Below, one piece after another: positions 33,220 through 48,530 of a DNA stretch of 64,000 nucleotides. The stretch comes from Owenia fusiformis. Lineage: Eukaryota > Annelida > Polychaeta > Sabellida > Oweniidae. Where the stretch lies: positions 18,396,822 to 18,460,821 of the forward strand of contig CAIIXF020000008.1 in assembly GCA_903813345.2 (NCBI GenBank). The letters are read 5' to 3'. The notes below the pieces were generated by a model that saw only the letters and a program-made list of their open reading frames with translations, was not told the origin of the DNA and ran no database searches. A program made the position numbers and the translations under genes. Numbering within the stretch: position 1 is the first letter of the stretch; the number at the start of each line of letters is the position of its first letter.

Positions 33220-33312
33220 CACTCGAACGAATGAACGGACGGAAAAACAAACGGACGATTGAGTGATGGCTTCTGTATATCCCTATGAACTACGTTGCTG
33301 GAATAATTACCT
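33220..33312 (+). mobile_element. Degenerate GGAC-tailed element end beside the thioesterase stop
   Basis: GAACGGACGG...AAACGGACGATTG is followed by TGTATATCCCTATGAACTACGTTGCTGGAATAAT, a diverged match to the element end at 9100-9170 (TATATCCCTCCGAACTTCGTTCGATGGGATAAT). It abuts the stop codon of the thioesterase terminal exon, so the 3' UTR would be largely transposon-derived. Confidence 0.45.
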
Positions 33313-33413
33313 TCAGGTAAGCGTAGTATGGAAGAAGTTGAGAATTCTCTGCCAAGAGTCCTCTTGTGCGACACTGTGCTCATGCACGCTGCCTCCCCAC
33401 ACACATGGACTAT
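33313..33413 (-). CDS. Thioesterase terminal exon 8
   Basis: After TTTGTGTTTCAG, the exon completes the His codon begun in exon 7 and encodes [20 protein letters not shown] followed by [12 protein letters not shown] and TGA. The WGG...H...AQEDSW pattern is the hallmark C-terminus of ACOT/BAAT proteins. Its first 47 bp are the template of the satellite. From the AQEDSW codons on, the sequence is unique to this copy. Confidence 0.93.
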
Positions 33414-36400
33414 CTGAAACACAAAGGGTTATCATATTGCTACACTATGCTCATGCACGCTGCCTCCCCACACACATGGACTATCTGAAACACAAAGGGT
33501 TATCATATTGCTACACTATGCTCATGCACGCTGCCTCCCCACACACATGTACTATCTGAAACACAAAGGGTTATTATATTGCTACACTATGCTCATGCAC
33601 GCTGCCTCCCCACACACATGGACTATCTGAAACACAAAGGGTTATCATATTGCTACACTATGCTCATGTACGCTGCCTCCCCACACACATCGTCTATCTG
33701 AAACACAAAGGGTTATTATATTGCTACACTATGCTCATGCACGCTGCCTCCCCACACACATGGACTATCTGAAACACAAAGGGTTATCATATTGCTACAC
33801 TATGCTCATGCATGCTGCCTCCCCACACACATGGACTATCTGAAACACAAAGGGTTATTATATTGCTACACTATGCTCATGCACGCTGCCTCCCCACACA
33901 CATGGACTATCTGAAACACAAAGGGTTATCATATTGCGACACTATGCTCATGCACGCTGCCTCCCCACACACATGGACTATCTGAAACACAAAGGGTTAT
34001 CATATTGCTACACTATGCTCATGCACGCTGCCTCCCAACACACATGGACTATCTGAAACAAAGGGTAATCATATTGCTACACTATGCTCATGCACGCTGC
34101 CTCCCCACACACATGGACTATCTGAAACACAAAGGGTTATCATATTGCTACACTATGCTCATGCACGCTGCCTCCCCACACACATGGACTATCTGAAACA
34201 CAAAGGGTTATCATATTGCTACACTATGCTCATGCACGCTGCCTCCCCACACACATGGACTATCTGAAACACAAAGGGTTATCATATTGCTACACTATGC
34301 TCATGCACGCTGCCTCCCCACACACATGGACTATCTGAAACACAAAGGGTAATCATATTGCTACAGAATGCTCATGCACGCTGCCTCCCCACACACATGG
34401 ACTATCTGAAACACAAAGGGTTATCATATTGCTACACTATGCTCATGCACGCTGCCTCCCCACCCACATGGACTATCTGAAACACAAAGGGTAATCATAT
34501 TGCTACAGAATGCTCATGCACGCTGCCTCCCCACACACATGGACTATCTGAAACACAAAGGGTTATCATATTGCTACACTATGCTCATGCACGCTGCCTC
34601 CCCACACACATGGACTATCTGAAACACAAAGGGTTATCATATTGCTACACTATGCTCATGCACGCTGCCTCCCCACACACATGGACTATCTGAAACACAA
34701 AGGGTAATCATATTGCTACAGAATGCTCATGCACGCTGCCTCCCCACACACATGGACTATCTGAAACACAAAGGGTTATCATATTGCTACACTATGCTCA
34801 TGTACGCTGCCTCCCCACACACATCGTCTATCTGAAATACAAAGGGTTATCATATTGCTACAGAATGCTCATGCACGCTGCCTCCCCACACACATGGACT
34901 ATCTGAAACACAAAGGGTTATCATATTGCTACACTATGCTCATGCACGCTGCCTCCCCACACACATGGACTATCTGAAACAGAAAGGGTAATCATATTGC
35001 TACAGAATGCTCATGCACGCTGCCTCCCCACACACATGGACTATCTGAAACACAAAGGGTTATCATATTGCTACACTATGCTCATGCACGCTGCCTCCCC
35101 GCCCACATGGACTATCTGAAACACAAAGGGTTATCATATTGCTACACTATGCTCATGCACGCTGCCTCCCCGCCCACATGGACTATCTGAAACACAAAGG
35201 GTTATCATATTGCTACACTATGCTCATGCACGCTGCCTCCCCGCCCACATGGACTATCTGAAACACAAAGGGTTATCATATTGCTACACTATGCTCATGC
35301 ACGCTGCCTCCCCACACACATGGACTATCTGAAACACAAAGGGTTATCATATTGCTACACTATGCTCATGCACGCACGCTGCCTCCCCACACACATGAAC
35401 TATCTGAAACAAAGGGTTATCATATTGCTACACTATGCTCATGCACGCTGCCTCCCCACACACATGGACTATCTGAAACACAAAGGGTAATCATATTGCT
35501 ACAGAATGCTCATGCACGCTGCCTCCCCACACACATGGACTATCTAAAACACAAAGGGTTATCATATTGCTACACTATGCTCATGCACGCTGCCTCCCCA
35601 CACACATGGACTATCTGAAACACAAAGGGTTATCATATTGCTACACTATGCTCATGCACGCTGCCTCCCCACACACATGGACTATCTGAAACACAAAGGG
35701 TTATCATATTGCGACACTATGCTCATGCACGCTGCCTCCCCACACACATGGACTATCTGAAACACAAAGGGTAATCATATTGCTACAGAATGCTCATGCA
35801 CGCTGCCTCCCCACACACATGGACTTTCTGAAATACAAAGGGTTATCATATTGCTACACTATGCTCGTGCACGCTGCCTCCCCACCCACATGGACTATCT
35901 GAAACACAAAGGGTTATCATATTGCTACAGAATGCTCATGCACGCTGCCTCCCCACACACATGGACTATCTGAAACACAAAGGGTTATCATATTGCTACA
36001 CTATGCTCATGCACGCTGCCTCCCCACACACATGGACTATCTGAAACACAAAGGGTAATCATATTGCTACAGAATGCTCATGCACGCTGCCTCCCCACAC
36101 ACATCGTCTATCTGAAACACAAAGGGTTATTATATTGCTACACTATGCTCATGCACGCTGCCTCCCCACACACATGGACTATCTGAAACACAAAGGGTTA
36201 TCATATTGCTACACTATGCTCATGCACGCTGCCTCCCCACCCACATGGACTATCTGAAACACAAAGGGTTATCATATTGCTACAGAATGCTCATGCACGC
36301 TGCCTCCCCACATACATGGACTATCTGAAACACAAAGGGTTATCATATTGCTACACTATGCTCATGCATGCTGCCTGCCAACACATATGGATTATCTGAA

Positions 36401-39400
36401 ACACAAAGGGTTATCATATTGCGACACTATGCTCATGCACGCTGCCTCCCCACACACATGGACTATCTGAAACACAAAGGGTTACCATATTGCTACACTA
36501 TGCTCATGCACGCTGCCTCCCCACACACATGGACTATCTGAAACACAAAGGGTTATCATATTGCTACAGAATGCTCATGCACGCTGCCTCCCCACACACA
36601 TGGACTATCTGAAATACAAAGGGTTATCATATTGCTACAGAATGCTCATGCACGCTGCCTCCCCACACACATGGACTATCTGAAACACAAAGGGTTATCA
36701 TATTGCTACAGAATGCTCATGCACGCTGCCTCCCCACACACATGGACTATCTGAAATACAAAGGGTTATCATATTGCTACAGAATGCTCATGCACGCTGC
36801 TTCCCATACACATGGACTATCTGAAACACAAAGGGTTATCATATTGCTACACTATGCTCATGCACGCTGCCTCCCAACACACATGGACTATCTGAAACAA
36901 AGGGTAATCATATTGCTACAGAATGCTCATGTACGCTGCCTCCCCACACACATCGTCTATCTGAAATACAAAGGGTTATCATATTGCTACAGAATGCTCA
37001 TGTACGCTGCCTCCCCACACACATGGACTATCTGAAACACAAAGGGTTATCATATTGATACACTATGCTCATGCACGCTGCCTCCCCACACACATGGACT
37101 ATCTGAAACACAAAGGGTTATCATATTGCGACACTATGCTCATGCACGCTGCCTCCCCACACACATGGACTATCTGAAACACAAAGGGTTATCATATTGC
37201 TACACTATGCTCATGCACGCTGCCTCCCCACACACATGGACTATCTGAAACACAAAGGGTAATCATATTGCTACAGAATGCTCATGCACGCTGCCTCCCC
37301 ACACACATGGACTATCTGAAACACAAAGGGTTATCATATTGCTACACTATGCTCATGCACGCTGCCTCCCCACACACATGGACTATCTGAAACACAAAGG
37401 GTTATCATATTGCTACACTATGCTCATGCACGCTGCCTCCCCACACACATGGACTATCTGAAACACAAAGGGTAATCATATTGCTACAGAATGCTCATGC
37501 ACGCTGCCTCCCCACACACATGGACTATCTGAAACACAAAGGGTTATCATATTGCTACACTATGCTCATGTACGCTGCCTCCCCACACACATCGTCTATC
37601 TGAAATACAAAGGGTTATCATATTGCTACAGAATGCTCATGCACGCTGCCTCCCCACACACATGGACTATCTGAAACACAAAGGGTTATCATATTGCTAC
37701 ACTATGCTCATGCACGCTGCCTCCCCACACACATGGACTATCTGAAACAGAAAGGGTAATCATATTGCTACAGAATGCTCATGCACGCTGCCTCCCCACA
37801 CACATGGACTATCTGAAACACAAAGGGTTATCATATTGCTACACTATGCTCATGCACGCTGCCTCCCCACCCACATGGACTATCTGAAACACAAAGGGTT
37901 ATCATATTGCTACACTATGCTCATGCACGCTGCCTCCCCACACACATGGACTATCTGAAACACAAAGGGTTATCATATTGCTACACTATGCTCATGCACG
38001 CACGCTGCCTCCCCACACACATGGACTATCTGAAACACAAAGGGTTATCATATTGCTACACTATGCTCATGTACGCTGCCTCCCCACACACATCGTCTAT
38101 CTGAAACACAAAGGGTTATTATATTGCTACACTATGCTCATGCACGCTGCCTCCCCACACACATGGACTATCTGAAACACAAAGGGTTATCATATTGCTA
38201 CAGAATGCTCATGCACGCTGCCTCCCCACACACATGGACTATCTGAAATACAAAGGGTTATCATATTGCTACAGAATGCTCATGCACGCTGCCTCCCCAC
38301 ACACATGGACTATCTGAAACACAAAGGGTTATCATATTGCTACACTATGCTCATGCACGCTGCCTCCCCACACACATGGACTATCTGAAACACAAAGGGT
38401 TATCATATTGCTACACTATGCTCATGCACGCTGCCTCCCCACACACATGGACTATCTGAAACACAAAGGGTTATCATATTGCTACACTATGCTCATGCAC
38501 GCTGCCTCCCCACACACATGGACTATCTGAAACACAAAGGGTTATCATATTGCTACACTATGCTCATGCACGCTGCCTCCCCACACACATGGACTATCTG
38601 AAACAAAGGGTAATCATATTGCTACAGAATGCTCATGTACGCTGCCTCCCCACACACATCGTCTATCTGAAATACAAAGGGTTATCATATTGCTACAGAA
38701 TGCTCATGCACGCTGCCTCCCCACACACATGGACTATCTGAAACACAAAGGGTTATCATATTGCTACACTATGCTCATGCACGCTGCCTCCCCACACACA
38801 TGGACTATCTGAAACACAAAGGGTAATCATATTGCTACAGAATGCTCATGCACGCTGCCTCCCCACACACATGGACTTTCTGAAATACAAAGGGTTATCA
38901 TATTGCTACAGAATGCTCATGCACGCTGCCTCCCCACATACATGGACTATCTGAAACACAAAGGGTTATCATACTGATACACTATGCTCATGCATGCTGC
39001 CTGCCAACACATATGGATTATCTGAAACACAAAGGGTTATCATATTGCGACACTATGCTCATGCACGCTGCCTCCCCACACACATGGACTATCTGAAACA
39101 CAAAGGGTTATCATATTGCTACACTATGCTCATGCACGCTGCCTCCCCACACACATGGACTATCTGAAACACAAAGGGTTATCATATTGCTACACTATGC
39201 TCATGTACGCTGCCTCCCCACACACATCGTCTATCTGAAACACAAAGGGTGATTACATTGCTACACTATGCTCGTGCACGCTGCCTCCCCACACACATGG
39301 ACTATCTGAAACACAAAGGGTTATCATATTGCTACACTATGCTCATGCACGCTGCCTCCCCACCCACATGGACTATCTGAAACACAAAGGGTTATCATAT

Positions 39401-42400
39401 TGATACACTATGCTCATGCACGCTGCCTCCCCACACACATGGACTTTCTGAAATACAAAGGGTTATCATATTGCTACAGAATGCTCATGCACGCTGCCTC
39501 CCCACACACATGGACTATCTGACACACAAAGGGTTATTATATTGCTACACTATGCTCATGTACGCTGCCTCCCCACACACATCGTCTATCTGAAACACAA
39601 AGGGTTATCATATTGCTACACTATGCTCATGCACGCTGCCTCTCCACACAAATGGACTATCTGAAACACAAAGGATTATCATATTGCTACACTATGCTCA
39701 TGTACGCTGCCTCCCCACACACATCGTCTATCTGAAACACAAAGGGTTATTATATTGCTACACTATGCTCATGCACGCTGCCTCCCCACACACATGGACT
39801 ATCTGAAACACAAAGGGTTATCATATTGCTACACTATGCTCATGCACGCTGCCTCCCCACACACATGGACTATCTGAAACACAAAGGGTTATCATATTGC
39901 TACACTATGCTCGTGCACGCTGCCTCCCCACCCACATGGACTATCTGAAACACAAAGGGTTATCATATTGCTACACTATGCTCATGCACGCTGCCTCCCC
40001 ACACACATGGACTTTCTGAAATACAAAGGGTTATCATATTGCTACAGAATGCTCATGCACGCTGCCTCCCCACACACATGGACTATCTGAAACACAAAGG
40101 GTTATCATATTGCTACACTATGCTCATGCACGCTGCCTCCCCACACACATGGACTATCTGAACCACAAAGGGTTATCATATTGCTACACTATGCTCATGT
40201 ACGCTGCCTCCCCACACACATCGTCTATCTGAAACACAAAGGGTTATTATATTGCTACACTATGCTCATGCACGCTGCCTCCCCACACACACGGACTATC
40301 TGAAACACAAAGGGTTATCATATTGCTACACTATGCTCATGCACGCTGCCTCCCCACATACATGGACTATCTGAAACACAAAGGGTTATCATATTGCTAC
40401 ACTATGCTCATGCACGCACGCTGCCTCCCCACACACATGGACTATCTGAAACACAAAGGGTTATCATATTGCTACACTATGCTCATGCACGCTGCCTCCC
40501 CACCCACATGGACTATCTGAAACACAAAGGGTTATCATATTGCTACACTATGCTCATGCACGCTGCCTCCCCACACACATGGACTATCTGAAACACAAAG
40601 GGTTATCATATTGCTACACTATGCTCATGCACGCTGCCTCCCCACACACATGGACTATCTGAAACACAAAGGGTTATCATATTGCTACACTATGCTCATG
40701 CACGCTGCCTCCCCACACACATGGACTATCTGAAACACAAAGGGTTATCATATTGCTACACTATGCTCATGCACGCTGCCTCCCCACACACATGGACTAT
40801 CTGAAACACAAAGGGTTATCATATTGCTACACTATGCTCGTGCACGCTGCCTCCCCACCCACATGGACTATCTGAAACACAAAGGGTTATCATATTGCTA
40901 CACTATGCTCATGCACGCTGCCTCCCCACACACATCGTCTATCTGAAACACAAAGGGTTATCATATTGCTACACTATGCTCATGCACGCTGCCTCTCCAC
41001 ACAAATGGACTATCTGAAACACAAAGGGTTATCATATTGCTACACTATGCTCATGCACGCTGCCTCCCCACCCACATGGACTATCTGAAACACAAAGGGT
41101 TATCATATTGCTACAGAATGCTCATGCACGCTGCCTCCCCACACACATGGACTATCTGAAACACAAAGGGTTATCATATTGCTACACTATGCTCATGCAC
41201 GCTGCCTCCCCACACACATGGACTATCTGAAACACAAAGGGTTATCATATTGCTACACTATGCTCATGTACGCTGCCTCCCCACACACATCGTCTATCTG
41301 AAACACAAAGGGTTATTATATTGCTACACTATGCTCATGCACGCTGCCTCCCCACACACATGGACTATCTGAAACACAAAGGGTTATCATATTGCTACAC
41401 TATGCTCATGCACGCTGCCTCCCCACATACATGGACTATCTGAAACACAAAGGGTTATCATATTGCTACACTATGCTCATGCACGCACGCTGCCTCCCCA
41501 CACACATGGACTATCTGAAACACAAAGGGTTATCATATTGCTACACTATGCTCATGCACGCTGCCTCCCCACCCACATGGACTATCTGAAACACAAAGGG
41601 TTATCATATTGCTACACTATGCTCATGCACGCTGCCTCCCCACACACATGGACTATCTGAAACAGAAAGGGTAATCATATTGCTACACTATGCTCATGCA
41701 CGCTGCCTCCCCACACACATGGACTATCTGAAACAAAGGGTTATCATATTGCTACACTATGCTCATGCACGCTGCCTCCCCACCCACATGGACTATCTGA
41801 AACACAAAGGGTTATCATATTGATACACTATGCTCATGCACGCTGCCTCCCCACACACATGGACTATCTGAAACACAAAGGGTTATCATATTGCTACACT
41901 ATGCTCATGCACGCTGCCTCCCCACACACATGGACTATCTGAAACACAAAGGGTTATCATATTGCTACACTATGCTCATGCACGCTGCCTCCCCACACAC
42001 ATGGACTATCTGAAACACAAAGGGTTATCATATTGCTACACTATGCTCATGCACGCTGCCTCCCCACACACATGGACTATCTGAAACACAAAGGGTTATC
42101 ATATTGCTACACTATGCTCGTGCACGCTGCCTCCCCACCCACATGGACTATCTGAAACACAAAGGGTTATCATATTGCTACACTATGCTCATGCACGCTG
42201 CCTCCCCACACACATCGTCTATCTGAAACACAAAGGGTTATCATATTGCTACACTATGCTCATGCACGCTGCCTCTCCACACAAATGGACTATCTGAAAC
42301 ACAAAGGGTTATCATATTGCTACACTATGCTCATGCACGCTGCCTCCCCACCCACATGGACTATCTGAAACACAAAGGGTTATCATATTGCTACAGAATG

Positions 42401-45400
42401 CTCATGCACGCTGCCTCCCCACACACATGGACTATCTGAAACACAAAGGGTTATCATATTGCTACACTATGCTCATGCACGCTGCCTCCCCACACACATG
42501 GACTATCTGAAACACAAAGGGTTATCATATTGCTACACTATGCTCATGTACGCTGCCTCCCCACACACATCGTCTATCTGAAACACAAAGGGTTATTATA
42601 TTGCTACACTATGCTCATGCACGCTGCCTCCCCACACACATGGACTATCTGAAACACAAAGGGTTATCATATTGCTACACTATGCTCATGCACGCTGCCT
42701 CCCCACATACATGGACTATCTGAAACACAAAGGGTTATCATATTGCTACACTATGCTCATGCACGCACGCTGCCTCCCCACACACATGGACTATCTGAAA
42801 CACAAAGGGTTATCATATTGCTACACTATGCTCATGCACGCTGCCTCCCCACCCACATGGACTATCTGAAACACAAAGGGTTATCATATTGCTACACTAT
42901 GCTCATGCACGCTGCCTCCCCACACACATGGACTATCTGAAACACAAAGGGTTATCATATTGCTACACTATGCTCATGCACGCTGCCTCCCCACACACAT
43001 GGACTATCTGAACAGCAAAAAGTCCATAGGGTTATCATTTTCAATTCAATTCACTTTATTTCAAATGTTTCAGATATAGTATTTCTCATCGACATGAAGA
43101 CATGAAGTTCTAAAGAAATATTGCTACACAATATGCTGCTTCCCACACAAAATGGACTACCTAACACCAGCTAATGATCTGAATCATCATATGATTATTT
43201 TGAATTGTGTTGGCTATCTTAAATGCTTTTTATTACAGAAAAATAAGTTGTACATGTACAAAGCTCTAGATTTAGAGAGAGGATAAAATACGATTTCAAT
43301 AAACTAAATAAAGATTTACTCATTTTAAAGTATTATCTCTAAGAAGGTGAATTGGTCAAATATTGATGACACGTTTTTATGAGAATGTATCTAGTATGAC
43401 CACACTAGTGGATATAAAAGAATAGTTTCTGTCAAATCAATAAAAGTACATGGGCATCAAAGTATTCCAGTAAATGCCTGATGGCCAATATAATGAGCCA
43501 CATTTGAGAAAATTCCAATTAATGACTTACGGAAAAATTTGTGGTATGAGCTCCGACAGAAGGGGGTATACGGAGGTTCTAATAGATGACCAGTTTTAGG
43601 GTAGATTTCAAGATGAAAGTTATCCTTGCCATGATTCCTGAGTCTTTGAGCAATTTTCGATCCGGAGGTTGGTCCATATACACAGTCATCTTCACCAAAC
43701 AGTAACAGATATTTGGCATCAGATTTTTCAACCTATAAAAAGATGTTGCCGCGGCTCAGATAATTATCTTTAAGAGTTACTTTTATGAGAATACAATTGT
43801 AATTTAGAGAGAGGATAAAATACGATTTTAATAAATCAAATAAAGATTTACTCATTTTAAATAATTATCTCTAAGAAGGTGAATTGGTCAAATATTGATG
43901 ACACATTTTTATGAGAAAGTAATTACATAATAAAAAACCATAACATGATAAAATGATAAAAACATCATTTTAAATTGACTTTTATTTGACAATAGGGAGG
44001 CAATTTTAAATGACATTGCACTGGAATACCCCAATTTAACCCCATTAGAATATGACCAGAAAAATAAGCCGGGTTTTGTTGCATATACATGTACAGTGAA
44101 ACCTGTCTTAGCGAACACCTCTCTCTAGTGAACACCTGTGTCTAGTGAACACCCCTTCCCAGCATATACTCCACTGACTTCTGTTAAACATATAGTCCTA
44201 TCAATAAAACATATAAAATAGTCTACCTTTATTATGCATTCCTCTGGTACTTCAGCTAATTCATACGTCTTGGATAATTTAATGCCCTCATCAGAAAACT
44301 CAATATGTTCCATGTCCGGCCTAAAGTAAAAAAAAATATTTCAAGATCCAGGTGACGGCACCTTTGAAATGTAAAGTGTATAAACACATTTTTCTTGAAA
44401 TTTCAACATCCATCAGGGACCAGAATTATTATGATTTTTTCCTGGTTTTAGTCTGTATTATATCATATGTGTTATTTCAAGATATATAAAGGAGTAATGA
44501 TTATCTAGTACATGTACATCTTTCCATTAACAAAGCCTTTTATTGGTTTTTTATTGCCTTTTATGTATAAGAACCATGACATACATACATATACATGATC
44601 TCCTACACTGAATGCAGCAATGTTTCCAAAAAGTGAAAAATAAGCAAATTTTAGTTTATCCAGATATCATGCTAAAAAGTAATTACATCTCAGTCTATAA
44701 ATACCAATACATTGCTTGTAAATATTACTATAAATGTGCAATTTTGTCATTTGATATGGACAATGGTCCAATAGAGTACTGACTTTGGCTAGTTCCTTGT
44801 AAATAAAATGGGATAATGGTCAACTTGTGTAATGTCTACTTACATGAAACCAGGTAGGGTCTGCCCTCTATATGTAATAGGTGTCTCTGAGAGGAAATGA
44901 CAGGCATTTATTGCACACACAGCTTTTATCTGAAATGAAGAGTAAATCTGGATAATAATGAGCAAAGAACAAAAAACAGCATGTTACAACTGGCATCACT
45001 CAACATGTTACAAATGGCAGCATTTTACAAAGAGCAGCGTTTTACAATGGGCACCACATGTTACAAAAGGAATCATGTTACAGAAGGCAACATATTACAA
45101 AGGGCAACATATTACAAAGGGCAACATGTTACAAAGGGCAGCATGTTAATAAGGGCAACAAGTTACAAAGGGCAGCATGTTAATAAGGGCAACATGTTAC
45201 AAAGGGCAGCATGTTGATAAGGGCATCATGTTACAAGGGTCAGCATGTTAATAAGGGCACCATGTTACAAAGGGCAGCATGTATATAAGGGCAATATGTT
45301 ACAAAGGGCAGCATGTATATAAGGGCAATATGTTACAAAGGGCAGCATGTTAATAAGAGCAACATGTTACAAAGGGCAGCATGTTAATAAGGGCAGCATG

Positions 45401-48400
45401 TTAATAAGGACAGCATGTTAAGAAGGGCAGCATGTTAATAAGGGCAACATGTTACAAAGGGTAGCATATTAATAAGGGCAACATGTTACAAAGGGCAGCA
45501 TGTTAATAAGGGCAACCCTTATACTTTCTGCTACATATTAGGCAGATCAAGAAATTTCAATTACAATCAAATTATTGAGTAAAGTTTACCTGTTTGAAAT
45601 GTTCTGCCATAAGGAGGGCAAGGTTGCCTCCCTTGGAGACTCCAAGCACACCAACACCGCCATCTATTACACTGTTATGACTAGAAAGCCAGTTAGCTGC
45701 AGTCTGAAAAAATTAGGCTAGGGAAATTAAACTGCATGTTTAGCATTTTCTCTAATATCTGTTTAACCTTGTGAATAAGCATTTGTCAACAAGCAAATAT
45801 TTAGAGAGCAAAATGGCAAAAAGTGGCAAAAAAAGAAAAAATACCCTGGTATCTATGAGCTTAAATGACATGTCATATTGCATTATTGTAGATCATGAAA
45901 GAAATTGTGCATTTTTCATTGTGGTATTTTGATAGAGGATTGGAAAAGCCAATGACTTAACCCAGGTTTAATGAAATAAAGCATTAACATGCAAAATGTC
46001 ATAATCTACAATTTGTTACCGAAGCCAAACACAGAACACAAACCACCGACTGCTGAACACCCTCCACAAAAAGTTGGAGACTATCTCATATGTCACCATT
46101 TCTGGTGGTGACATAAAAAATACAAAAAAAGCTCAATAAGATTGCAAGTTGATGAACTAACTTCAAAGTAATCCAGCTGAACATCAGCCAGGGTTTTAGG
46201 CAAGTCCTCATACTGGAAGAAAGCAAGAGCCAGACTTGCTATTCCTCTTGATGCCAGTAGCGCAGCCCTGAACTCAGTTAGACCACCAAATGTGCCAAAC
46301 AAGTCAATCACACCTGGGAATGGACCTGGGCCTACATGTGAAAATATCAGAAACATAAAACTTAGATCAGTACATGTACATTGTAGACTTTGAATGCAGG
46401 GCTCCAGAATGCAAGGCTCCAAAGGATGCAAGGTACCATCCACTCCTTCCTTGTTCCATCCTTCTTCCCCTGTCTTAAAAGCCTTGCATTCAGAGGACGA
46501 AAATGTATTCATGATGCACAGAACCAGAATATGTAAAATTTATGTTGTATGGTTCCTTCACCTAGGCAACATAATTCATGTATGCTAATGAAGGGGTCAT
46601 GAAATGCCGGAAAGCAGGGCTAAGCCAAGACAATATGTATGACTTCTGAATTTTCATAATACCCTACAATATTTCTTCCAATAACTCCCTGTGAATGGCA
46701 TATATTGTTGATTCATAAGATAAAGATTTGTGCTGATCAGTTGAGTATAAAACTCTATAGTTGATAATTGTTCACAGTTGAAACAATAGGTAACATTTCA
46801 ACATTATAATTACCGCTTGGTAGGAACAGCATTCCCCTTATACACCCATCATTAACTGGTATCCTTTGAACATCTTTACGAATGTACCATCTTTCTAAAT
46901 TAACACTATCTAGAATACAATTCATATGTTTGTCATTGGCACTTATATTTTTCAGTTCATCCATAGATTTATGTCCGTCCAATAGGTGGAGCTGTATGTG
47001 ATAGGGTGTTGTGATGTCACGTTTTCCGAGGCGGATTCCTGGTTTGTGCTTTGGAACCATGCTCCATAATAATCCCATAGGTTCAATACCTGAAATATTA
47101 AAATATAATTAATAATGTTTACATATAACAGGTTGCTGTGGAGGTGGTAGACCAAGTAGACCAATTAAAGGTGCAACAATTAGTGCAGGGGTTCATTCAA
47201 CAATCATCAACCAGTGTCAAAATCTATTTAAGTTTGGATATTTCATCAAGACTAACATATATTTTCATTATCTACAAAGAAACCACCTGGATGATTATTT
47301 CAGCTGATATTCCTCTTGAAATGTGGTGTATCTTAAAAATCTATAAGTGGGACTCCCTTTATAGAAGCTTTGAACTGAATTTACACTTCTTAATGCTGAA
47401 ATTGATAGCTTATGCATACATTTTAAGAAAATAGGTATGTCAAAGAAGGTGTTAAGCCAAATATTGACCTGATAGTTCACAAAAAATAAAAAAAATTAGA
47501 ATTTTCTCTCTTCAGTCCTTGTTGCACCTTTAATGGTATCTTACACAGGAGGGTTAAATTGCTTCATTAAGAAAATAGGTATGTCAAAGAAGGTGTTAAG
47601 CCAAATATTGACCTGATAGTTCACAAAAAATAAAAAAAATTAGAATTTTCTCTCTTCAGTCCTTGTTGCACCTTTAATGGTATCTTACACAGGAGGGATA
47701 AATTGCTTCATTAAAAGAGATTAGATGTGACACTGGGCAAAATTCTTCATTATGAAGCTTTTTTCAAAATGTTTCCTAATGAAGCAATTTAATCCTGTTC
47801 ACGTATCTCTGAAGCTCTTTGTGTCAATAAGCACTCCACATGTACAATTAAATAGCCACGGAGCGATTCTTGAAAAACTGTGAACAATGTTTTCCAAAAT
47901 GGAATTGTCTGTTACAATTTATACAATATGACAAGGTGAGAGATTTTGTAATTCAGCAATCGTGATATAAATCTGTACTTTTATAATACGTACATACATA
48001 AGAATAATTATACCGATGTAAACACCTTAATAGTAAGGAATTATGAGGATTTTTACAAAATATCCATTTCCTGACAAATGTGAACAATAGATTTACATCT
48101 CTATGAGAAACCAATTATACAGGCATTTGCATTTTGATTTGAGTATTTCATTTGTTAAAAATATATCAATACAAAATAACAATATAAATAGTCATTTTTA
48201 AACAAGGACATATAGGACTTTCATTTTCATGAATAATACAAGACAATCGTTTTCAACTTACTTACCCTTATATGTCCCACCCTGGCAAACCCCTGTATCT
48301 AAATCAAGGCAACCAGCGCCATCTGTAACATAGTGCCCAAATGACCAGAAGTGCTGCCCTCTTTCTTCCAGCTCTGCAAGCAATGTTACAGGCTGATGTT

Positions 48401-48530
48401 GCTTCGCTGCTGATACATTTACCTTGATGATATCATCGACCAACGCAATAGCTGGTTGTACTTGGAGGCTCAGACATCTTGCCGTTTCGTGATCTAAAAA
48501 CAGAATAGTATTTATTTCAAAATGACACAT
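33313..48530 (-). CDS. Acyl-CoA thioesterase / BAAT-like gene, eight exons
   Basis: Exons on the minus strand, 5' to 3': 48266-48493, 46814-47089, 46162-46331, 45590-45703, 44844-44929, 44227-44320, 43531-43732, 33313-33413. All junctions are GT-AG and all phases agree, giving 422 residues from 48493, close to the usual length of the ACOT1/2/4-BAAT family. Family members hydrolyse acyl-CoA or transfer the acyl group to an amino acid. The N-terminal thioester-hydrolase domain spans about residues 5-150 (EPMGLLWSM near 78) and an alpha/beta-hydrolase domain follows ([11 protein letters not shown]). The triad is Ser247 in GVSKGG, Asp in GEDD (337/338) and His371 in [10 protein letters not shown]. 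Serine instead of the cysteine of BAAT favours thioesterase activity. The tail TTLT is not a peroxisomal signal. The 5' start is unresolved: an in-frame ATG at 48528-48530 reads straight into exon 1, or an acceptor at 48494 joins an unseen exon. The last intron is filled by a satellite made from exon 8. Confidence 0.9.
33372..43014 (-). repeat. 71-bp satellite built from a 3' splice site and exon 8
   Basis: About 135 head-to-tail units in one orientation. Read on the minus strand, a unit is 24 bp of intron end (ATATGATAACCC, then TTTGTGTTTCAG) plus 47 bp of exon 8 (ATAGTCCATGTGTGTGGGGA ... GAGCATAGTGTAGCA). It fills nearly all of the 10.1-kb intron 7, and its distal edge is the intact terminal exon. 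Variants include a 4-bp gain (GCACGCACGC), a 2-bp loss (AAACAAAGG), CATCGTCTATC, CCCACCCACATGG and CTACAGAATGC. A segment of at least 850 bp (40807-41660) is repeated 1280 bp further on (42087-42940). Every plus-strand frame through it is an artefact. Confidence 0.97.
43115..43165 (-). repeat. Diverged relic of the 71-bp unit
   Basis: On the minus strand GTAGTCCATTTTGTGTGGGA and GCAGCATATTGTGTAGCAAT follow the order of the satellite unit (ATAGTCCATGTGTGTGGGGA, GCATAGTGTAGCAAT). It sits 100 bp beyond the homogeneous array, on the exon-7 side, and looks older than the array. Confidence 0.7.
43270..43389. repeat. ~120-bp direct repeat, intron 7 copy
   Basis: Starts TTAGAGAGAGGATAAAATAC and recurs at 43802-43921 in intron 6, so the two copies flank exon 7 at a spacing of about 532 bp. 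Differences are few. Confidence 0.9.
43531..43732 (-). CDS. Thioesterase exon 7, catalytic Asp and His
   Basis: Encodes [20 protein letters not shown] with the acid residue, and [20 protein letters not shown] with the catalytic histidine. The acceptor is TTTTATAG and the donor TTCC|GTAAGT leaves one base (C), completed by AT at the start of exon 8 to give His. If unspliced, the frame would continue 24 residues from the Arg codon to a stop without family similarity. Confidence 0.95.
43802..43921. repeat. ~120-bp direct repeat, intron 6 copy
   Basis: Partner of 43270-43389. Both contain AAGGTGAATTGGTCAAATAT and TTTTTATGAGAA. The pair implies a past tandem duplication of the exon-7 interval, of which only one exon copy remains. 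Confidence 0.9.
44092..44160. mobile_element. Partial MITE end in intron 6
   Basis: ACAGTGAAACCTGTCTTAGC followed by three AGTGAACACC-like repeats. The terminus matches that of the complete element at 63150-63328. No partner end is nearby. Confidence 0.5.
44227..44320 (-). CDS. Thioesterase exon 6
   Basis: Encodes [20 protein letters not shown] followed by [11 protein letters not shown]. It follows acceptor TTACTTTAG and ends AAG|GTAGAC. This less conserved lid-like segment is supported mainly by phase agreement and position. Confidence 0.85.
44844..44929 (-). CDS. Thioesterase exon 5
   Basis: Encodes [20 protein letters not shown] then RGQTLPGF, matching the family strand that follows the nucleophile helix. 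The donor AT|GTAAGT splits a Met codon completed by exon 6. Confidence 0.9.
44978..45516. repeat. 17/34-bp minisatellite in intron 4
   Basis: Alternating 17-bp units AGGGCAACATGTTACAA and AGGGCAGCATGTTAATA form about 30 copies, degenerate at the left edge. Short plus-strand frames across it are repeat artefacts. Confidence 0.9.
45590..45703 (-). CDS. Thioesterase exon 4, nucleophile
   Basis: Encodes [20 protein letters not shown] followed by [18 protein letters not shown]. The GxSxG elbow carries the catalytic serine. The acceptor is TTTTTTCAG and the donor CAG|GTAAAC, both in phase 0. Confidence 0.95.
46022..46122. repeat. Dispersed repeat, copy 2 (intron 3)
   Basis: AACACAGAACACAAACCACC, AAAGTTGGAGACTAT and TCTGGTGGTGACATAA parallel the block at 24648-24764 in order and spacing. 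Confidence 0.6.
46162..46331 (-). CDS. Thioesterase exon 3
   Basis: Encodes [20 protein letters not shown], then [20 protein letters not shown] and EDLP, the most conserved block of the ACOT/BAAT hydrolase fold, which forms the first beta-alpha units and oxyanion region. The acceptor is ACATGTAG and the donor GAA|GTTAGT. A frame running further in either direction is intron read-through. Confidence 0.95.
46814..47089 (-). CDS. Thioesterase exon 2
   Basis: Begins after TTTCAG and encodes [20 protein letters not shown], then [18 protein letters not shown], then [20 protein letters not shown], ending in LFLPSG split across the donor G|GTAATT. These are core motifs of the linker between the thioester-hydrolase and alpha/beta-hydrolase domains. 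Confidence 0.93.
47163..47537. mobile_element. Possible MITE in thioesterase intron 1
   Basis: TTAAAGGTGCAACAA near 47165 is inverted as TTGTTGCACCTTTAA near 47520, suggesting short terminal inverted repeats around 375 bp of AT-rich sequence. Its right part is included in the 144-bp duplication next to it. Confidence 0.45.
47425..47712. repeat. 144-bp tandem duplication in intron 1
   Basis: Copies at 47425-47568 and 47569-47712 both start AAGAAAATAGGTATGTCAAA and are almost identical (GGGTTAAA versus GGGATAAA near the end). It is recent and non-coding. Confidence 0.95.
48266..48493 (-). CDS. Thioesterase exon 1 (first recognised)
   Basis: Encodes the start of the N-terminal domain ([12 protein letters not shown]...[19 protein letters not shown]...GGTYKG), the family pattern of a short beta domain ending in GGSYxG. 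The donor is AAGG|GTAAGTAAG. The exon either starts at acceptor TTTTTAG|ATCACG (phase needs one upstream base) or is continuous with an in-frame ATG at 48530. Confidence 0.88.

Follow-up and report, generated by a model that had tools for sequence, protein, structure and literature searches.

A tandem array built from the acceptor junction of its host gene

The window, a 64,000-nucleotide stretch of the Owenia fusiformis genome, contains a predicted thioesterase gene whose last modelled intron is mostly occupied by a 71-bp tandem array, and the 135 units of this array are built from the end of that intron and the start of the last coding exon. The gene lies on the minus strand; its features are listed below, with exons 1 to 7 placed by splicing and translation.

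48266..48482, minus strand: exon 1 as modelled
46814..47089, minus strand: exon 2
46162..46331, minus strand: exon 3
45590..45703, minus strand: exon 4, encoding GVSKGG, which we take to be the nucleophile motif
44844..44929, minus strand: exon 5
44227..44320, minus strand: exon 6
43531..43732, minus strand: exon 7, with donor TCC|GTAAGT, leaving phase 1
33414..43530, minus strand: intron 7, 10,117 bp, mostly array
33313..33413, minus strand: exon 8, the last coding exon of the model, with the complete C terminus (translation, Pfam BAAT_C, ACOT2 alignment)
33367..43012, minus strand: 71-bp tandem array of 135 units (TRF, splitting into units, consensus against exon 8)
Within 33367..43012, minus strand: the array unit, 24 bp of intron end (ATATGATAACCCTTTGTGTTTCAG) followed by the first 47 bp of exon 8

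The eight modelled exons splice into an open frame of 419 residues; the start codon and the 5' end of exon 1 were not located in this model. The protein carries an N-terminal Bile_Hydr_Trans domain (E 8.2e-29) and a BAAT_C domain (E 3.2e-59), both above the Pfam cut-off, the BAAT_C match extending to residue 418, and its best solved relative is acyl-CoA thioesterase 2 (3hlk, E 5.9e-94). Domains and alignment agree with the thioesterase-family assignment made in the preliminary description, and by its domains the gene can be classed as a putative ACOT/BAAT-type acyl-CoA thioesterase. The same description had the frame of exon 7 continuing into exon 8 as the last coding exon, and both points hold in the gene model, in which the junction is in phase 1, the frame is open and the family match runs to the end of exon 8 and thus to the C terminus. 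Because a donor-like AAG|GTAATT (8/9) directly follows the exon 8 stop codon, at 33311, a spliced 3' UTR is possible, and exon 8, called terminal in the earlier description, may not be the last exon of the transcript; the first ATTAAA and the first AATAAA stand 0.71 kb and 0.84 kb downstream. The other six introns of the model measure 458 to 1,176 bp. Elsewhere in the gene, intron 4 holds about 30 copies of a 17-bp minisatellite (45004-45514), and intron 1 holds a 144-bp tandem duplication with 99% matches (47423-47714).

Anatomy of the array

TRF places the array at 33367-43012, with a period of 71, 135.7 copies and 95% matches, and splitting at the junctions gives 135 full units, so that the copy number of about 135 proposed earlier is upheld in the one assembly from which it is taken. 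Most units (124) are 71 bp long, while five measure 75 bp, five 69 bp and one 70 bp. When the consensus unit was aligned to exon 8, 24/24 intron bases and 45/47 exon bases were identical, which bears out the proposed composition of 24 bp of intron end and 47 bp of exon start. Every unit has the AG together with a pyrimidine-rich tract and the opening 47 bases of the exon. Cut at the AG, the region contains 137 acceptors, namely those of the 135 full units, that of one diverged unit at the edge, and exon 8's own junction. AG is present in 137/137 of them and TTTGTGTTTCAG is exact in 113/137, in keeping with the earlier claim of near-identical acceptors ahead of exon 8. A branch-point-like TGATAAC, which may serve as the branch point of the units, occurs in 107/135 units, with TGATTAC in 15 and TAATAAC in 10. 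As polyadenylation signals, neither AATAAA nor ATTAAA was found in the consensus unit, whose exon part also ends without a good donor.

The best donor-like site of the consensus scores 7/9 and lies 9 nt past the acceptor, the next best scoring 5/9; this CATGTGTGT is found at that position in 91/135 units, and the donors of exons 1 to 7 score 6 to 8. Units acting as cassette exons were set aside as unlikely; the best donor-like site would define exons of 9 nt. G predominates on the coding strand of the array (GC skew +0.31), a bias that might promote R-loops and instability. As RNA, three array units (36000-36212) fold less well than 200/200 dinucleotide shuffles, and the tiled consensus folds less well than 200/200 tiled shuffled units (z 2.1).

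When the 498-Mb assembly was searched at the DNA level, at least 136 matches to the array were obtained, and all those listed fall at one locus on C8, which speaks against a dispersed, multi-locus satellite DNA; repeat counts from this search are lower bounds, very common words having been skipped. The array shows the features of a minisatellite or tandem-repeat locus, namely a single locus found, homogenised units and block duplications.

The junction in a paralog

In a search of the genome, exon 7 and the full exon 8 each matched a single further site; the two sites are close together on the same contig, at a distance of about 1.07 Mb from the host gene, in a paralog (L003, minus strand). 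Its exon 7 agrees with that of the host gene in length (202 bp) and in phase (1), its exon 8 likewise follows CAG and starts with AT (CAG|AT), and its intron 7 is single and measures 1,752 bp. The shared phase-1 junction between exons 7 and 8 therefore supports the boundary that underlies the finding. TRF returned no tandem array (0 rows) in the 3.4 kb fetched, so the array is not common to the paralog. The paralog ends in SKL, presumably a peroxisomal targeting signal, and the host gene ends in TLT.

What the units encode

In the frame set by exon 7, a stop is met within the unit in 135/135 units, so only the last acceptor yields the conserved C terminus, and a 17-residue stretch of the host protein is encoded after that acceptor only. 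The preliminary description had seen the 15-residue C-terminal motif of the family in each unit; read from exon 7, the motif is exact in 80/135 units and the remaining units differ from it. The commonest unit ending is one 17-residue peptide, exact in 75/135 units. Since the C-terminal stretch found only in exon 8 matches both the thioesterase family and the paralog, we infer that full-length splicing has probably been kept, at least until recently.

Unit variation and array growth

There are 43 distinct sequences among the 135 units. The exon part shows 24 distinct types of substitution, with a synonymous to nonsynonymous ratio of 5:19 where 29:112 changes are possible (p = 1.0); this comparison lends no support to coding selection on the units. 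Variable columns number 22/47 in the exon part and 12/24 in the intron part (Fisher p = 0.81). Selection to keep or destroy the AGs is likewise unsupported, because the intron part is as variable as the exon part and 37/71 columns are invariant anyway, even though AG is present in 135/135 units. The unit variation looks neutral.

Fifteen consecutive units recur exactly 18 units on and a run of eight recurs 39 units on, compared with a longest recurring run of at most 7 when the unit order was shuffled (n = 200). This pattern is that of tandem-repeat turnover, not of selection on single units. Along the array, no gradient of similarity toward exon 8 was seen among the 129 units that measure 69 or 71 bp, with the five 75-bp units and the 70-bp unit left out; the quarter means were 44.09, 43.44, 43.47 and 44.19 of 47.

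The 5' edge of the array holds three more features:

43039..43118, minus strand: 80-bp insert separating the array from the diverged unit
43119..43160, minus strand: exon-like part of the diverged unit at the extreme 5' end, detached from the array (local alignment)
43270..43389, minus strand: 120-bp copy of intron 6 sequence (43802-43921, 94%), in intron 7 adjoining the array

The alignment of the diverged unit scores 53.5, against a best of 40.5 in 1000 mononucleotide shuffles, and its upstream flank holds an ATATGAT...GTGTTAG acceptor. The last ~60 nt of the insert belong to a dispersed repeat with at least 39 further copies (of 86 candidates, 40 were scored, including the insert itself). 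The insert splits the unit seam GCAATATGATAACCC, leaving GCAATA on the edge side and ATGATAACCC on the array side, which suggests that at least two units were present before it arrived. A 114-bp query from the intron 6 copy matched two places only in the genome, the original and the copy; with its position near the array, this copy reveals other local duplication in the host gene. Ordinary tandem-repeat growth is consistent with the block duplications and with the dispersed repeat inserted at the 5' edge.

A pilot survey for further junction arrays

Three copies of TTTTTCAG with gaps of 30 to 60 bases were counted at 629 places in the same genome, whereas the reversed control gave 30; judged by eye, many of the places listed belong to a few dispersed families. 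From the places listed, seven array loci were picked by eye, all on C1 and C2, and none of these seven was established as a junction array (0/7). One locus (L010, wider L013) has about three 49-bp units with an acceptor-like TTTTTCAG, the last of which runs into an open frame, and another (L012, wider L014) has about 11 43-bp units with an acceptor-like TTTTTCAG, the last leading to a short frame whose end is donor-like. Both are suggestive as candidate further junction arrays. No Pfam match was obtained for the frame peptides of L010/L013 and L012/L014 or for two other L013 peptides, and no PDB match for two L013 peptides; one L015 peptide has a sub-threshold Pfam match only (E 0.07). By our reading, the nearest putative exon upstream in L013 has an incompatible phase.

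Splicing across the array

We consider it somewhat probable that the array is a junction satellite that evolves largely neutrally and that, through competition among its acceptors, reduces the output of the full-length product. A short segment across the intron 7/exon 8 junction would have been duplicated in tandem and would have grown to 135 units, presumably through ordinary turnover, in detail by unequal exchange or slippage together with block duplications. Because each unit carries an AG, a pyrimidine-rich tract and an exon start, the pre-mRNA would offer 137 candidate acceptors, nearly all sharing one pyrimidine tract, to the single exon 7 donor. Full-length protein would arise from use of the last acceptor only. 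This acceptor is probably still used, as it alone opens a complete exon, and exon definition from that sole complete exon would aid it, while the early acceptors would draw off part of the splicing. Were an earlier acceptor chosen, the array would be read as exon and a stop would be reached within that unit; the product would be truncated, and the array would thereby act as a sink that lowers full-length output.

Distances speak against this reading: the exon 7 donor is 370, 520 and 591 bp away from the first three acceptors and 10,117 bp away from the last, and the early ones, being near the normal intron size of this gene, could dominate, so that the full-length form could be rare. The donor-like CATGTGTGT in 91/135 units is a further point against it. 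A serious rival, although we rate it as fairly unlikely, goes further and holds that the 5'-most array acceptors are mainly used, that the usual mRNA has a truncated C terminus and a satellite 3' UTR, and that the full-length enzyme is minor or lost. These distances speak for it, as do the transcription of the 5'-most acceptors well ahead of exon 8, the one ending shared exactly by 75/135 units, and the position upstream of exon 8 of the regions expected to hold the residues of the catalytic triad. However, the C-terminal stretch found only in exon 8 matches the family and the paralog and so has been kept, and no coding constraint was seen in the exon-derived part of the unit.

The opposite view, that the spliceosome skips an inert array with no effect on expression, would account for the neutral variation in both unit parts and for the open frame of the host gene. 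Yet the AG is kept in every one of the 135 units, and the last 24 intron bases ahead of exon 8 equal the unit consensus, so competition among the sites is expected, and we regard an inert array as distinctly unlikely. The reliance on a single assembly leaves an artefact, with the array or its copy number wrong, as a highly improbable explanation, because the array consists of 43 distinct units in a non-simple order, has unique edges, lies inside a 39-Mb contig, and has all its listed matches at a single locus. It also seems to us quite improbable that the array is a working acceptor ladder, in which length would set the ratio of full-length thioesterase to a defined C-terminally truncated form through transcription time and competition, and copy number would be a heritable splicing dial; in that case, this genome would repeatedly give rise to tandem expansions of 3' splice junctions.

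Relation to known repeat systems

Tandem repeats that carry splice sites are known in human genes, with a small copy number for the 37-bp repeats of F7 and with ~12-bp units at an exon edge for the IFI6 (6-16) minisatellite. Intron 7 of F7 is described as holding highly homologous 37-bp repeats that vary in number and carry the donor, the first repeat holding the real 5' splice site and the most upstream site being normally chosen (PMC6627357). For IFI6, the minisatellite is reported to provide multiple splice donors (Turri 1995, via PMC4526556), and two downstream repeat units to serve as donors (PMC4526556). Neighbouring tandem acceptors of similar affinity, as at NAGNAG sites, compete with one another (PMC1449888).

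The present array resembles F7 in having highly homologous tandem repeats with a splice site at an exon-intron boundary, and IFI6 in having repeat units that supply alternative splice sites, here as candidate acceptors. It differs from F7, where few copies lie on the donor side and the most upstream site is chosen, in being on the acceptor side, and from IFI6, with donors in ~12-bp units, in having acceptors in a 71-bp unit present in 135 copies. Unlike in IFI6, the unit takes its coding part from the beginning of the last coding exon. NAGNAG sites stand a few bases apart, whereas here 137 sites spread over 9.7 kb. With ordinary intronic minisatellites the array shares a single locus found, a unit below 100 bp, strand asymmetry and block duplications, but its unit is the splice junction of the host gene itself. 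The tandem unit spans the exon-intron boundary and carries a splice site, as in a splice-junction minisatellite; the repeated site is an acceptor, hence the mirror image of the F7 and IFI6 kind, in which it is a donor. No acceptor-side junction array was found in the open-licence PMC literature, which speaks weakly for the absence of such cases; PMC3778950, which deals with intron 7 of another gene, adds nothing to the comparison. The preliminary statement that this is not a described standard class of repeat must therefore be narrowed, as the donor-side cases of F7 and IFI6 are published, and it stands for the position at the acceptor and for the size (135 units, 9.6 kb), neither of which we found described in that literature. 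To our knowledge, the kind is known, and its acceptor-side form is new and much larger.

Significance

The anatomy of the array is remarkable. Classical work on splice-site competition relied on constructs with a few duplicated sites; in this gene, a single donor is confronted with 137 near-identical acceptors, which makes the locus a natural test of 3' splice-site choice. With the unit variants as tags, the way in which the spliceosome weighs order, distance and exon definition would be measurable. For the thioesterase gene of this annelid, the array means that a gene whose reading frame is conserved and open can carry 9.6 kb of its own splice junction.
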